Under the pieces are notes generated by a model. The model saw only the letters and a program-made list of their open reading frames with translations, ran no database searches and was not told where the DNA came from. Below, piece by piece: positions 4,182 to 42,966 of a stretch of 64,000 nucleotides of DNA. The translations under genes were made by a program, and so were the position numbers. Each line of letters opens with the position of its first letter. Position 1 is the stretch's first letter. The stretch is from Ruminococcus flavefaciens (GTDB taxonomy: Bacteria; Bacillota; Clostridia; Oscillospirales; Ruminococcaceae), in contig JAMPAU010000001.1 in NCBI GenBank assembly GCA_023667045.1, forward strand, positions 1,228,594-1,292,593, read 5' to 3'.

Positions 4182-5075
4182 ATGAAAAATACTATTTTTA
4201 CCGGAGCAGGTATTGCTATTATTACGCCTTTTAATAAGGACGGTTCAGTGAATTACGACCGTCTCGGCGAAATGATTGACTATCAGATTGCTAACCACAC
4301 CGACGCTATTATTATCTGCGGTACTACCGGAGAATCTTCTACCATGACCGATGAGGAACACCTCAACTGCATTAAGTATGCTGTCGAGAAGACCGCCGGC
4401 AGAGTTCCTGTTATTGCAGGTACTGGCAGTAACGATACACGCTATGCTATCGAACTCTCAAAGGAAGCCGAAGCTGTAGGTGCAGACGCACTTCTGCTGG
4501 TAACTCCCTACTACAACAAGACCACTCAGAAAGGTCTTATAATGCACTTCAATGCTATTGCCGACGCTGTTAATATCCCGATAGTCCTCTATAATATTCC
4601 CGGCAGAACAGGCATGGGCTTTGACGTTGCAACCGTTAAGGAACTCGCCAAGCACAAGAATATTGTCGCAATCAAAGAGGCTAGCGGAAATATCAGCTAC
4701 TGTGCAAAACTTCTTGCTGAATGCGGTGACGTTATTGACGTATACAGCGGTAACGACGACATGGTAGTACCTCTGATGTCTCTTGGTGCAAAGGGAGTTA
4801 TCTCTGTGGCTTCGCACGTTATTCCAGAGCAGATGCACGATATGGTACAATACTGTCTTGACAATAACTTTGCAGATGCTACAAAGTTACAGCTTGAATA
4901 CCTCGACTTAATCAATGCACTTTTCATTGAAGTAAACCCGATTCCTGTAAAAGAGGCTGTAAACATGACGGGCGTTGACGTTGGTTCATGCCGTATGCCT
5001 TTGTGCGATATGTCCGACGAACACAAGGCTATTTTAAGGGCAAAAATGGAAAAGCACGGGCTTATCAATGCATAA
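4182..5075 (+). CDS. dapA: 4-hydroxy-tetrahydrodipicolinate synthase
   Basis: This 297-residue TIM-barrel aldolase condenses pyruvate with aspartate semialdehyde, the first committed step of lysine and diaminopimelate synthesis. Visible hallmarks are CGTTGESSTM with the catalytic Thr, VLYNIPGRTG with the active-site Tyr and Arg, and the Schiff-base Lys near residue 165 in VAIKEASGN. The length is normal. The ribosome binding site AAAGGAG is well placed. The stop codon lies at the edge of an AT-rich inverted repeat that separates it from dapB. Confidence 0.97.
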   Translation: MKNTIFTGAGIAIITPFNKDGSVNYDRLGEMIDYQIANHTDAIIICGTTGESSTMTDEEHLNCIKYAVEKTAGRVPVIAGTGSNDTRYAIELSKEAEAVGADALLLVTPYYNKTTQKGLIMHFNAIADAVNIPIVLYNIPGRTGMGFDVATVKELAKHKNIVAIKEASGNISYCAKLLAECGDVIDVYSGNDDMVVPLMSLGAKGVISVASHVIPEQMHDMVQYCLDNNFADATKLQLEYLDLINALFIEVNPIPVKEAVNMTGVDVGSCRMPLCDMSDEHKAILRAKMEKHGLINA

Positions 5076-5216
5076 TTAAGAATGCATAATGCTGAATTAT
5101 TAATATATTGCTGATAAATATTAGTTTTATATCAAAATGTTTATAAATAATTATAAATTATGCATTGTAAATTCTTAATTAATTATGCATTCAGCATTAT
5201 GAATTATAAATTAAAT
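5069..5216. repeat. AT-rich palindromic repeat between dapA and dapB
   Basis: This stretch is built from variants of AATTATGCAT and GAATTATTAAT in both orientations. The left end (GCATAATTAAGAATGCATAA) is approximately the reverse complement of the right end (ending TTATGAATTATAAATTAA). Similar words recur near 41150-41190. It looks like a small MITE-type or hairpin repeat that has entered the lysine operon. No gene lies inside it. Confidence 0.6.
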
Positions 5217-39877: not shown

Positions 39878-40831
39878 ATGAATACGGATAAAAGAAAAGT
39901 CGTGCTTATCGGTACGGGTATGGTCGGCATGAGCTTTGCATACGCTCTCGTGAATCAAGGCGGTATCTGCAATGAACTTGTCCTCATAGACGTAAACAAG
40001 GAACGTGCTAACGGCGAGGCTATGGACCTAAATCACGGTCTTGCCTTTGCAAAGTCCAATATGCGAATCTATGCCGGAGAATACAAGGACTGCAAAGACG
40101 CTGATATTGTCGTTATTGCTGCCGGAGTTGCTCAGAAAGACGGTGAGACACGTCTTGACCTGCTACAGAGGAATACTGAGGTTTTCCGCTCTATTATAAA
40201 TCCTGTCGTAAAGTCGGGTTTTGACGGCATATTCCTTGTCGCTACAAACCCTGTCGACATCATGACAAGAGTAACATATGAACTCTCACGCTTTGGTGCT
40301 TCACGTGTTATTGGTACAGGTACTTCTCTTGATACTGCACGTCTGCGTTATCTGCTCGGCGACTACTTCACTGTTGACCCGAAAAACATTCACGCTTATG
40401 TTATCGGCGAACACGGCGACAGCGAGTTTGTGCCTTTCTCACAGGTTATGCTTGCTACAAAGTCCGTAACCGAAATCCTAGAGGACGAACGTAACGACTA
40501 TAACATAGATGATATGCAGTCCATTGAAGAACAGGTGCGTACCTCTGCATATAAGATTATCAAGGCTAAAAGAGCAACATATTACGGCATAGGTATGGCT
40601 ATAGCACGTATCGTCAAGGCTATACTCGGCGACGAAAACAGTGTGCTTACAGTGTCCGCTAAACTTTGCGGTGAATACGACAGCAAGAATGTTTTCATAG
40701 GCGTGCCTTGCATTATCGGCAGAAACGGCGTTAAGGAAATAGTAGAACTCTCTCTTACCGACGAGGAAAAGGAAAAGTTCCAGAATTCAAGACAGGTGCT
40801 GGAAGATAATTTCAACGGTCTTAATCTCTGA
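39878..40831 (+). CDS. ldh: L-lactate dehydrogenase
   Basis: This 317-residue enzyme reduces pyruvate to L-lactate with NADH, regenerating NAD during fermentation. The nucleotide-binding motif is LIGTGMVGMSFA. The substrate loop AAGVAQKDGETRLDLLQRN has Gln at the position that distinguishes lactate from malate dehydrogenases. VATNPVDIMT and the catalytic His in VIGEHGDSE near residue 178 are intact. An ACCGGAGG ribosome binding site precedes the ATG. It has its own promoter, and a terminator hairpin that is also part of the downstream repeat element. Confidence 0.96.
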   Translation: MNTDKRKVVLIGTGMVGMSFAYALVNQGGICNELVLIDVNKERANGEAMDLNHGLAFAKSNMRIYAGEYKDCKDADIVVIAAGVAQKDGETRLDLLQRNTEVFRSIINPVVKSGFDGIFLVATNPVDIMTRVTYELSRFGASRVIGTGTSLDTARLRYLLGDYFTVDPKNIHAYVIGEHGDSEFVPFSQVMLATKSVTEILEDERNDYNIDDMQSIEEQVRTSAYKIIKAKRATYYGIGMAIARIVKAILGDENSVLTVSAKLCGEYDSKNVFIGVPCIIGRNGVKEIVELSLTDEEKEKFQNSRQVLEDNFNGLNL

Positions 40832-40837
40832 TTATAA

Positions 40838-40876
40838 GGTGACGGATTGAAAAATTATCCGTCACCCATATTTTTG
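40838..40876 (+). terminator. Terminator hairpin of ldh, part of repeat element A
   Basis: GGTGACGGAT (40838-40847) and ATCCGTCACC (40857-40866) form a perfect 10-bp stem with a nine-base loop. CATATTTTT follows. Confidence 0.65.
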
Positions 40877-41098
40877 GCTATATATCAGCGAAAACAGTAC
40901 TTCCGGTGACGAAAGGTGACGGATATTTACTATTTTTATAACTCTTTAATAAAAGAATATATAATATATATATAAAATAGAAAAATAAAAAAGGTTTTAG
41001 AAAATGCGTCATATCCGTCACCCGAGAGACTGAAAAGTTTGATTTATGGCTGTATTTAGGAAAAAATCAAGGTGACGGATAAATATGAATCTGTCACC
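40838..41098. repeat. Non-coding element A with GGTGACGGAT inverted repeats
   Basis: The word GGTGACGGAT or its reverse complement occurs at 40838, 40857, 40915, 41013 and 41071, with partial copies at 40905 and 41093. Between 40915 and 41022 the words flank an AT-rich core (40925-41006) containing TAATAAAAGAATATATAATA. Segments like GGCTATATATCAGCGAAAAC and TTTATGGCTGTATTT follow the words. The layout matches element B downstream, but the word is different. No gene is present. Confidence 0.8.
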
Positions 41099-41104
41099 AA
41101 AAAG

Positions 41105-41190
41105 AACGTTGCAATTAATAATTAATTTCTGAGGATATATATCACTGTAAGATATTTATGAATTATGCATTATAAATTATGAATTAAAAG
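41105..41190. repeat. AT-rich palindromic repeat related to that at 5069-5216
   Basis: AATTAATAATTAATTTC near 41113 and TTATGAATTATGCATTATAAATTATGAATTA near 41157-41187 use the same words as the dapA-dapB repeat. It separates elements A and B. Confidence 0.5.
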
Positions 41191-41204
41191 TCTGTCACAC
41201 GAAA

Positions 41205-41465
41205 ATATGACCCATAAAAAATTATAGGTCATACTGGATTTATGGCTGTATATCAGCAAAAACAAGGCTTTTAAAAAATAAATATGACCTATATTTACTA
41301 TTTTTATAATTCTCTAATAAAAGAATATATAATATATATATAAAATAAAAAAATAGAAATAGTTTTAGAAAATGGGTCATATAGGTCATATGAAAACAAG
41401 AAACATCTTATTTGTGGCTATATTTCGAGTAAAATTAATATGACCCATAAAAAATTATAGGTCAT
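41205..41465. repeat. Non-coding element B with TATGACCYATA inverted repeats
   Basis: TATGACC(C/T)ATA or its reverse complement TATAGGTCATA occurs near 41206, 41223, 41283, 41380, 41439 and 41456. The core 41294-41374 is about 90% identical to the core of element A. Flanking segments (TTTATGGCTGTATATCAGCAAAAAC and TTTGTGGCTATATTTCG) are also shared. Only the inverted-repeat word differs, consistently at every position. No gene is present. Confidence 0.8.
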
Positions 41466-41488
41466 GCGGAACATAGAATATTTTATAT

Positions 41489-41518
41489 AAAAAAGGGTCT
41501 TTCAACAGTCCTTTTTTT
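41489..41518 (+). terminator. Possible terminator upstream of the MATE gene
   Basis: A-rich GG and CCTTTTTTT arms can pair around TCTTTCAACAG. The stem is imperfect. Confidence 0.4.
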
Positions 41519-41543
41519 GGCGGGAATTTTTACCGGAAATATG

Positions 41544-41572
41544 TTGACATTACAGGAAAAAAGTGATAGAAT
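41544..41572 (+). promoter_or_regulatory. Sigma-A promoter of the first MATE gene
   Basis: TTGACA at 41544-41549 and TAGAAT at 41567-41572 are spaced by 17 bases. This promoter rules out the longer frame starting at 41563. Confidence 0.78.
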
Positions 41573-41607
41573 GCTATTCGATACAAAAAAGGGGAGTTGA
41601 TGTCAAC

Positions 41608-42966
41608 ATGACAAAAAGCATGACAGAGGGAAATCCAGTGAAACTGATTCTTGAATTTTCACTGCCTTTACTGCTCGGAAATATTCTACAGCAGGCATAT
41701 AATATGGTTGATACGGCTATAGTCGGACGTGTACTCGGTGCTGACGCTCTCGGTGCGGTGGGTGCTTCAAGCAGTGTGCAGTTTCTTGTGCTGGGATTCT
41801 GTATCGGTACGTGTGCGGGATTCGGTATACCTATGGCTAAATATTTCGGTGCAAAACAACCCGACCGTCTGCGGAGTACTGTTTTTCACTCGTATCTGCT
41901 TACCGGATTCTTTGCGGTGGTGCTTACGCTGGTTACGTGCCTTATGTGCGGAAATATCATCGACCTCATGAAAGTTACCGGTGAAATCCGCAAGGACGCA
42001 TATACATATCTTTTTATTATTCTCGCCGGAATACCTTTCACGCTCTTCTATAATCTCCTTGCCAGTATGCTTCGTGCCATAGGCGACAGCAAAACCCCTT
42101 TTATATTTCTTGCCGTGTCGGCAGTGCTGAATATCATACTCGACTTTACTTTTATAGTGGTTATACCGTTAGGGTGTGCCGGAGCAAGTCTCGCTACTGT
42201 CATGGCACAGGCGTGCAGTGGAATAGCCTGTTTCGTGGTCATTCAGAAGAAATACCCTCTGCTGAAACTCTCTAAGGATATATGCCGTTTCAATCCGTAT
42301 GCCCTTAAAGAACTCATGGTTATGGGTGTACCAATGGGTTTGCAGTACTCCATAACGGCTATCGGTGCTATGGTTATGCAGTCGGCTAATAACTCTCTTG
42401 AGGACGTTTATATATCGGCATTTGCGGTTACTTCAAAACTAAAACAGCTTGCAATGTGTCCGTTTGACGCTATAGCTACCGGAGTGTCTGTATTCAGCAG
42501 TCAGAACTTAGGTGCAGGAAAGACAGACCGTGTTAAAAAGGGCATTATAAAAGGCACAGCTATAAACACAGCTTACGGTCTTATAATAGGAGTGGTGCTT
42601 ATATTCTGCGGACGGTCGCTGTCGCTGATGTTCCTTGACAGTACTGAGACAGCCGTGCTTGATGCGTGCGGTGAGTACATGAAATGCGTCGGCTATTTCT
42701 TCTGGTCGCTCGGTATTCTCAACACTTGCCGTATGAGTATACAGGGCATAGGTTTTTCCGGAATGGCTATATTCTCCGGAGTACTGGAGATGTTCGCCCG
42801 AATATTCGTAAGCAGGAAGTTTATTTCAGATTACGGATTCACGGCTATATGCTATACCGACCAAGCTGCATGGATTGTCGCTACTATATACTGCATGATA
42901 ATGTGTGTGGTGTGCGTTAGGAAAGCCTCTGAAAAGAACGTCATTCACGAAAAAATAAAAGTATAA
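41608..42966 (+). CDS. MATE-family efflux transporter
   Basis: The ATG at 41608, 11 bases after GGGGAG, gives about 452 residues and 12 hydrophobic helices. Family features are LILEFSLPLLLGNILQQAYNMVDTAIVGR at the N-terminus, the IIDLMKVTGEI loop, LLASMLRAIGDSKTPF, and the second-half AISAFAVTSKLKQLA-type segment with FSSQNLGAGKTDRVKKG. MATE proteins export drugs or metabolites using Na+ or H+ gradients. It is transcribed alone from its own promoter and ends at a bidirectional terminator. The substrate is unknown. Confidence 0.9.
   Translation: MTKSMTEGNPVKLILEFSLPLLLGNILQQAYNMVDTAIVGRVLGADALGAVGASSSVQFLVLGFCIGTCAGFGIPMAKYFGAKQPDRLRSTVFHSYLLTGFFAVVLTLVTCLMCGNIIDLMKVTGEIRKDAYTYLFIILAGIPFTLFYNLLASMLRAIGDSKTPFIFLAVSAVLNIILDFTFIVVIPLGCAGASLATVMAQACSGIACFVVIQKKYPLLKLSKDICRFNPYALKELMVMGVPMGLQYSITAIGAMVMQSANNSLEDVYISAFAVTSKLKQLAMCPFDAIATGVSVFSSQNLGAGKTDRVKKGIIKGTAINTAYGLIIGVVLIFCGRSLSLMFLDSTETAVLDACGEYMKCVGYFFWSLGILNTCRMSIQGIGFSGMAIFSGVLEMFARIFVSRKFISDYGFTAICYTDQAAWIVATIYCMIMCVVCVRKASEKNVIHEKIKV

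Follow-up and report, generated by a model that had tools for sequence, protein, structure and literature searches.

Stray copies of phage replication origins at shared chromosomal sites in Ruminococcus, and their possible action as decoys

Two intergenic elements of Ruminococcus flavefaciens, A and B, found in the stretch of 64,000 nucleotides analysed here (the window), are very probably orphan copies of phage replication origins, to judge from comparison of their sequences with those behind phage primase-helicase genes. They belong to a family of stray copies dispersed over the chromosome, whose iteron words match words at phage origins; the word is associated with a residue of the phage primase-helicase (Rep), and some copies lie at orthologous sites with changed words. 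Phage origins, the Per element and lambda origin decoys are already known; what appears to be new is the occurrence of stray copies at orthologous chromosomal sites in several species, with a word that differs by species. To judge from the listings of a search of the open literature in PMC, outside which most subscription journals lie, orphan phage origins that are scattered over a chromosome and occupy orthologous sites with changed words have not been described there. We hypothesize that the chromosomal copies act as decoys for phage initiators, and we regard the whole statement, stray origins and decoys together, as evenly poised.

Position and architecture of elements A and B

Elements A (40838-41098) and B (41208-41464) lie where an earlier note on this DNA had placed them, and both are intergenic. 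They are flanked by an ORF of the L-lactate dehydrogenase (LDH) type (39878-40831) and by one of the MATE transporter type (41563-42966), both named from their translations, and the window's ORF list contains no ORF of 80 aa or more within 40832-41562. The elements are composed of the following features.

40838..40866, + strand: A, left inverted word pair (GGTGACGGAT ... ATCCGTCACC)
40870..40896, + strand: A, left GGCTATATATCAGC module, like a module in the phage origins L101/L110
40905..40924, + strand: A, left iterons (GGTGACGAAA GGTGACGGAT)
40925..41003, + strand: A, AT-rich core, 90% A+T (family model R1)
41004..41022, - strand: A, right iterons, inverted (TGACGCAT, GGTGACGGAT)
41040..41068, + strand: A, right GGCTGTATTT module
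41071..41098, + strand: A, right inverted word pair
41208..41231, + strand: B, left inverted word pair (TGACCCAT ... ATAGGTCA), with a one-base difference between the arms
41238..41264, + strand: B, left GGCTGTATATCAGC module
41283..41293, + strand: B, left iteron (TATGACCTATA)
41294..41371, + strand: B, AT-rich core, 91% A+T (family model R1)
41372..41391, - strand: B, right iterons, inverted (TGACCCAT, TGACCTAT)
41410..41436, + strand: B, right GGCTATATTTC module
41441..41464, + strand: B, right inverted word pair, same as the left pair

In both elements an AT-rich core lies between inverted iterons, as in the replication origins of D5/P4-type phages, and both have terminal inverted repeats, as do MITEs and derivatives of insertion sequences. 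The common core that the earlier note had described is real, with 77 of 83 bases identical, and so is the exchange of words between the twins: A carries TGACGGAT words, B carries TGACC(C/T)AT words. There are five exact copies of GGTGACGGAT in A, together with GGTGACAGAT; with at most one mismatch, the GGTGACGGAT-type word has eight matches in the whole window against 2.6 expected, a number reached in none of 100 shuffles. The eight TGAC words of A comprise TGACGGAT five times and TGACGAAA, TGACGCAT and TGACAGAT once each, and every one of the seven TGAC words of B is TGACCCAT or TGACCTAT.

We also observed a second motif, GGCTRTATWTC followed by A-rich sequence, at 40870-40896, 41040-41068, 41238-41264 and 41410-41436. 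It lies between the core and the outer word pairs, in phage origins and stray copies alike.

A dispersed family in the genome

R1, a sequence-only model of the core made from 13 copies, identifies 19 core places (E <= 3.1e-14) in this Ruminococcus-type genome, which include the 13 copies used as seeds. All 19 were also recovered by blast; three are truncated at contig ends and could be halves that belong together, and one extra, weak R1 place lies at C57:120257. Element A gave 28 blast matches in its own genome, short pieces counted. The inverted-word pattern occurs 18 times in this genome, against between 0 and 5 occurrences per genome in 124 others of the genus, and the backwards control of the pattern does not occur in this genome. 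Words of the family include TGACGGAT, TGACCYAT, TGACGATA (L012), TGACAGGT (L016), TGACGTAT/TGACGCTT (L017) and TGTACCTTATG/TGTATGAT (L019, L020).

The ten places around which ORF lists were read (A, B, L002, L003, L014, L015, L016, L017, L019 and L020) all lie between chromosomal genes and none adjoins an intact primase; a primase fragment is found about 370 bases from L002. No primase lies near A and B, and none of the six primase-homologous places in the genome is on C24. Two chromosomal fragments (C68, C101) consist of the last ~60 codons of a primase joined to an origin-like stretch. The only primase gene of full-length type (C35) is broken into two ORFs and has the origin word GGGACGATAA, and an intact phage with the word TGACGGAT or TGACCYAT was not found in this genome. 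As side observations, the origin-like stretches of the two primase-end fragments (L036:8920-9290 and L092:8200-8530) have other words (GGACAGATAA; AAAGGATAAATG), and both fragments by eye start near the same primase residue; the broken primase and the GGGACGATAA origin are held by a prophage-like region, L091 (G000:C35:30000-49000).

The same architecture behind phage primase-helicase genes

When run over 60 genomes of the genus, R1 also matched two prophage-like regions (L044, L047), in both cases just past the stop of a gene for a phage primase-helicase that matches D5_N, NrS-1 polymerase HBD and TIGR01613. Relatives of this primase are present in 35 of 125 genus genomes (E <= 1e-30), and among viral contigs 191 stretches encode one, of which 80 were kept. 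Behind the primase stop, most of the loci printed contain words, an AT-rich core and inverted words by eye, the words being highly varied; no origin was seen by eye behind the primases of L145 and L388. L110 and L101 reproduce the whole A/B build, the two outer word pairs and the two GGCTATATATC-like modules included: an outer word pair is followed by a GGCTATATATC-like module and an iteron, then by the core, and beyond it by an iteron, the second module, the second word pair and the ribosome site of the next gene. The earlier suggestion of iterons around an AT-rich unwinding core is thereby supported, the same architecture being found immediately downstream of phage primase-helicase genes.

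The iteron words of both elements are used by phages of this primase family. That of A occurs as TATGACGGATAAAAATTTATCCGTCATA right after the primase stop of phage L103, whose contig ends before the core; that of B occurs as GGTGACCTATAAATTTTTATAGGTCACC in phage L108, whose contig ends within the core, and as TGACCCAT/TGACCTAT around the core in L099/L104/L126. In phages A2 and phiadh, GenBank records a rep_origin feature at the same position after the primase. Against the viral contigs, an exact 28-base core pattern and a hairpin-plus-module pattern each gave no match, and a shorter 21-mer core pattern gave six, none of them clearly an origin of the A/B build by eye.

The word goes with a residue near the primase C-terminus

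The earlier note had proposed that each element is matched to a different recognition partner and had advised a search for a protein gene that tracks the word. Both words are found behind phage primases, and the word tracks a C-terminal residue of the primase, in an exploratory association that was formed on the same data used for its test. From 151 primase loci we parsed 132, of which 88 are distinct and 86 have enough downstream sequence. Among these 86 pairs, a TGAC word is found in 18 of 22 in which the primase has a tryptophan in its wing, two residues before a conserved tyrosine near the C-terminus, vs 5 of 64 in which it has none (Fisher 1.2e-10); after dereplication at 80% identity the counts are 9/9 and 4/35 (1e-6). 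Of all alignment columns that were scored, that of the tryptophan ranks first (z 10.5) and a His-enriched position second (z 10.1). Nine of the 86 pairs are exceptions: L101, L110, L127 and L163 have the tryptophan without TGAC as top word (L127 has TGAC..GTCA), and L139, L141, L170, L197 and L231 have TGAC without the tryptophan.

Proteins fetched later all lack the wing tryptophan, so they probe the negative side of the rule only. No TGAC inverted word was flagged for any of 16 named phages (14 distinct tails). Two extra viral scans yielded nine further parsed proteins, besides five that did not parse; several of the nine have no origin directly behind the gene, and three were flagged (L353, L354, L359); for L353 and L354 the flag lies in sequence without a visible origin, and L359 has a true origin and contradicts the rule. 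We noted by eye other pairings of wing residues and words (L126-L261), namely GI.Y with TGTAGGG, GLYY with TGCAGGG and SG[FY]FY with TGTAT, which the named phages fit only in part.

Of 36 proteins, 35 match Pox_D5 and 13 match RFX_DNA_binding over their C-terminal 140 residues; the wing is the part with which RFX proteins read DNA. Against the PDB, the phage primase matches entry 7ola ('DNA primase'), which we take to be a SaPI5 protein, at 1e-45, and a profile of the C-terminal part gives weak matches, with 7ola at E 0.061 and chance matches to dynein scoring better.

Words are concerted within elements, with exceptions

The claim that the copies within an element change in concert was examined on the 17 elements of this genome that contain two or more TGAC words, 100 words in total; L019 and L020 lack such words. 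Over the four bases after TGAC, identity is 0.72 within elements and 0.586 with words shuffled between elements, the largest value of 5000 shuffles being 0.643 (p = 0.0002). The words thus do not vary at random within single elements, and this part of the claim stands; the concert is, however, not absolute, as chimeras exist. One element of this genome, L007, is a clear chimera, with TGACGGAT together with TGACCCAT and TGACCTAT, and elements with mixed words are also present in G050, G051, G107 and G038. Chance as the source of the words is rejected by both shuffle tests, that of the word count in the window and that of identity within elements.

The further idea that the hairpins are kept by compensatory change found no support. 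One or two mismatches separate the 8-base arms in 8 of the 16 listed hairpins of this genome (18 counted), and likewise in 5 of the 6 listed hairpins taken as chromosomal elements of relatives, a set from which other listed matches were dropped as chance by eye and in which most of the five of G118 are not listed. A recognition partner, rather than compensation within hairpins, accounts for the swapped words.

Shared chromosomal sites with changed words

In related genomes R1 identified 13 elements (L043, L059, L062, L046, L321, L325, L327, L328, L329, L330, L322, L324 and L326), a count that omits L051 and L323, which are doubtful, as well as the two phage loci, duplicates on the opposite strand and matches judged by eye to be due to chance; the weak matches L045, L048-L050, L052-L057 and L060 were discarded by eye as chance AT-rich sequence. 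Six of the 13, or six of 15 with the two doubtful ones, lie at sites that are occupied in our genome too, with different words (L043; L321; L329, L322 and L326; L330). For four others (L059, L046, L327 and L324) our genome has the site without an element, by eye, and the flanks of the remaining three match none of its element loci. Chance alone would, by a rough estimate based on 19 sites and some 2500 intergenic regions, give about 0.1 shared site. The shared sites are more readily put down to common descent of the insertion, which leaves the changed words unexplained. The genes that flank the shared sites are about 15-25% different between species; the cores and the paired iterons are intact.

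At the LDH site of A and B, 24 relatives could be compared: G118, G107 and G051 have an element, G002 and G055 have a lone hairpin (by eye), and 19 have no element in the stretch printed, where the next gene is often not the MATE gene. Another site lies directly upstream of a small unnamed gene, MNNYEE..., which has a relative in 121 of 125 genomes. In the 24 loci printed of 30 fetched, this site is occupied in 8, empty in 15 and clipped in 1; R1 recovered seven of the eight occupied loci and nothing in the remaining loci of the 30. There are at least three types of word at this site: TGTACCTTA/TGTATGAT in our genome, TGTATGAT in G107, G097 and G116, TGTATGGT/TGTATGAT in G055, TGTATGGT in G118, GTGACGGAT with TGACCTAT in G103 and GGTGACGGAT with TGACGCTT in G081. 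The copy of G116 (G116:C56, L400) is a tandem pair of origin elements, like A and B at the LDH site.

Upstream of a speE-type gene the words are TGACGTAT/TGACGGAT in our genome and GTGGTGGG in G118. Upstream of a gene MNGYSLW... our genome has TGTACC/TGTATCAT, a Ruminococcus MAG (L208) has TGACGGAT/TGACCTAT on both sides of the core, and G038 has TGAC-type words to the left of the core and TGTATGATATGAACC to the right. On its sequence, the G038 copy resembles an unfinished exchange of words, for which recombination within the common core would be the simplest cause. A scan with a 26-base core of one genome per species, 84,980 species in all, gave four stretches, in two Ruminococcus MAGs, one of which is the MAG of L208; its other copy, L207, lies at the MNNYEE site and by eye has the same sequence as that of G081.

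A decoy hypothesis and its alternatives

We hypothesize that the partner of the elements is a phage Rep of the D5/P4 type, whose Pox_D5/RFX-like C-terminal domain would read the iteron word. The words of A and B would then differ because the phage origins from which the elements descend, or by which they were converted, had different Rep specificities. On entry of a phage with a matching Rep, we infer that this protein would be drawn to the numerous iterons of the chromosome and away from the lone phage origin; some 20 chromosomal elements with about six iterons each would far outnumber one entering origin. Rep would be titrated, replication of the phage would come late or not at all, and the cell would be protected, against several phages if the set of words is diverse. 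The words would turn over at their fixed sites as phage specificities change, presumably through recombination in the shared core. That the copies titrate incoming initiators in this way, as a natural form of Per resistance, is a hypothesis that we place slightly below even. We keep it there because no matching phage was found in our genome, many relatives lack elements at the sites compared, chimeras and remnants show decay, and phage debris with occasional recombination explains much. The many empty sites (15 of 24 at the MNNYEE site and 19 of 24, in the stretch printed, at the LDH site) imply that the copies are not essential; that some copies are chimeric or decayed speaks against a decoy function; and the plasmid copies behind the resistance in published cases may have been more numerous than twenty chromosomal ones.

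Much of this could also be accounted for by debris, that is, by origins left by or captured from past prophages or phage DNA and kept or lost without function, an explanation that is doubtful in our estimate, though a serious contender. The words would differ as the source phages differed, and the shared sites would be old insertions, hot spots or places of recombination with new phage origins. The two fragments that join a primase C-terminus to an origin-like stretch speak for debris, and the chimeras L007 and L043 of G038 (left iterons of TGAC type, right iterons of TGTATGAT type), the empty sites and the lone hairpins left in G002 and G055 at the LDH site (by eye) agree with it. However, 18 of the 19 R1 core places have no detectable piece of primase nearby, the only exception being C68, by L002; cores and paired iterons are intact at orthologous sites despite the divergence of the flanking genes; and the inverted arrangement stays while the words change. 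The elements might instead be gene-free satellites, miniature elements that are replicated by the Rep of a helper phage and spread as phage parasites. Their many copies, their lack of genes and their complete origin would suit such parasites, and an excerpt of PMC7581432 describes SaPI Rep proteins that likewise use iterons just downstream of their own gene. We consider satellites improbable, however, since no integrase, attachment site, packaging signal or satellite-typical size was seen around A and B, and several species share sites of some copies, contrary to what is expected of a mobile satellite.

A further alternative is regulation in cis, in which binding or unwinding by Rep at an element would alter transcription of the neighbouring gene and so sense the phage. 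The eight elements seen at the MNNYEE site all immediately precede that gene, although the gene on the other side varies, and further shared elements precede the speE-type gene and MNGYSLW. Against this, most neighbours read are unnamed or of housekeeping type, neither of the two small genes matches Pfam or NCBIfam at E <= 0.1, and a terminator-like hairpin and promoter-like sequence downstream of A and B separate them from the MATE gene (by eye); such sensors are, in our view, as improbable as the satellites. The inverted word pairs at both ends could also belong to a structured RNA with compensatory hairpins or to transposon ends recognized by a transposase, both of which we regard as very improbable. 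The arms are mismatched in half of the listed hairpins of our genome and in nearly all of those listed from relatives, no Rfam covariance model reaches its gathering score in the region of A and B, and the identical build is a phage origin. An RNA hairpin under compensatory change is rejected on the mismatched arms and the missing Rfam match, and a transposase with changing specificity, which the earlier note had raised, finds no support: none was noticed in the ORF lists read, and the partner is a replication protein. Empty sites were also compared by eye for a target-site duplication, and their flanks are too diverged.

Decoy origins are the most likely of the mechanisms weighed here, tentatively and with slightly less than even confidence. 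Going further, we consider it possible, though somewhat more doubtful, that some Ruminococcus lineages keep a dispersed and evolving repertoire of decoy origins, with fixed sites, exchangeable words and several Rep specificities covered. If so, this would be an innate defence made of DNA only, without any gene, whose partner would be a phage initiator with wing residues that set the word; if the decoy hypothesis holds, such gene-free antiphage defence would be invisible to gene annotation. Even if it fails, the orphan copies would be a record of the phage specificities met by the lineage, the variety of origin words and the single wing residue that tracks one of them open the way to direct tests of how D5-type initiators recognize origins, and the changed words at constant sites pose a clear evolutionary question that strain collections can answer.

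Relation to known systems

Among the closest known counterparts are the origins of Lactobacillus phages A2 and phiadh, which have a primase-helicase of the D5/P4 type and, like A and B, an AT-rich core between inverted iterons. These origins lie directly behind the primase gene, whereas A and B have no adjoining primase or other phage gene, and the chromosome studied here holds about 20 copies with several words. The Per element of Streptococcus phage Sfi21, a noncoding element of 302 bp, is likewise a noncoding phage origin in a host. The primase of Sfi21 is distantly related to the present family, with 24.7% identity over a third. An excerpt of PMC6356513, citing Foley et al. 1998, states that this noncoding origin (PER) protected against 17 of 25 phages and that it works by copy number, in raised copies or in a prophage. 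In contrast, the copies described here are dispersed, orphan and chromosomal, some at sites common to species, and protection by them is putative.

Ectopic lambda origins on a plasmid of 20-40 copies arrest lambda, as do origin variants that still bind the O protein, and binding alone appears to be enough, according to an excerpt of PMC4488673; these decoys differ from ours in that they are artificial, are present in 20-40 plasmid copies and act on another initiator (O). Extra copies of a phage origin can thus stop that phage in lambda and Sfi21, which gives a precedent for decoy action. In SaPI Rep and SCCmec Cch2, the helicase C-terminal domain binds iterons just downstream of its own gene (excerpt of PMC7581432). 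SaPIs are, however, multi-gene islands, whereas A and B are origin only, and the integrase, Rep and regulator genes of SaPIs/PICIs are absent there, given the lack of ORFs of >=80 aa in 40832-41562. Interspersed intergenic repeats and MITEs are alike in being short and gene-free, with many intergenic copies and inverted ends; the A/B family differs in being derived from a phage origin, with no transposase partner noticed in the ORF lists read.

Other features of the window

The sole Rfam match in the window at gathering scores is a lysine riboswitch (RF00168, 2363-2534, 101 bits). AT-rich palindromic repeats (AATTATGCATT, AATTAAGAATT and variants) lie at 5067-5181 and 41161-41186 and flank several elements; the window has six matches, whereas 50 block shuffles gave 0.4 on average. 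These repeats are also found between genes of the dapA and dapB types, where G118 has an origin element instead.
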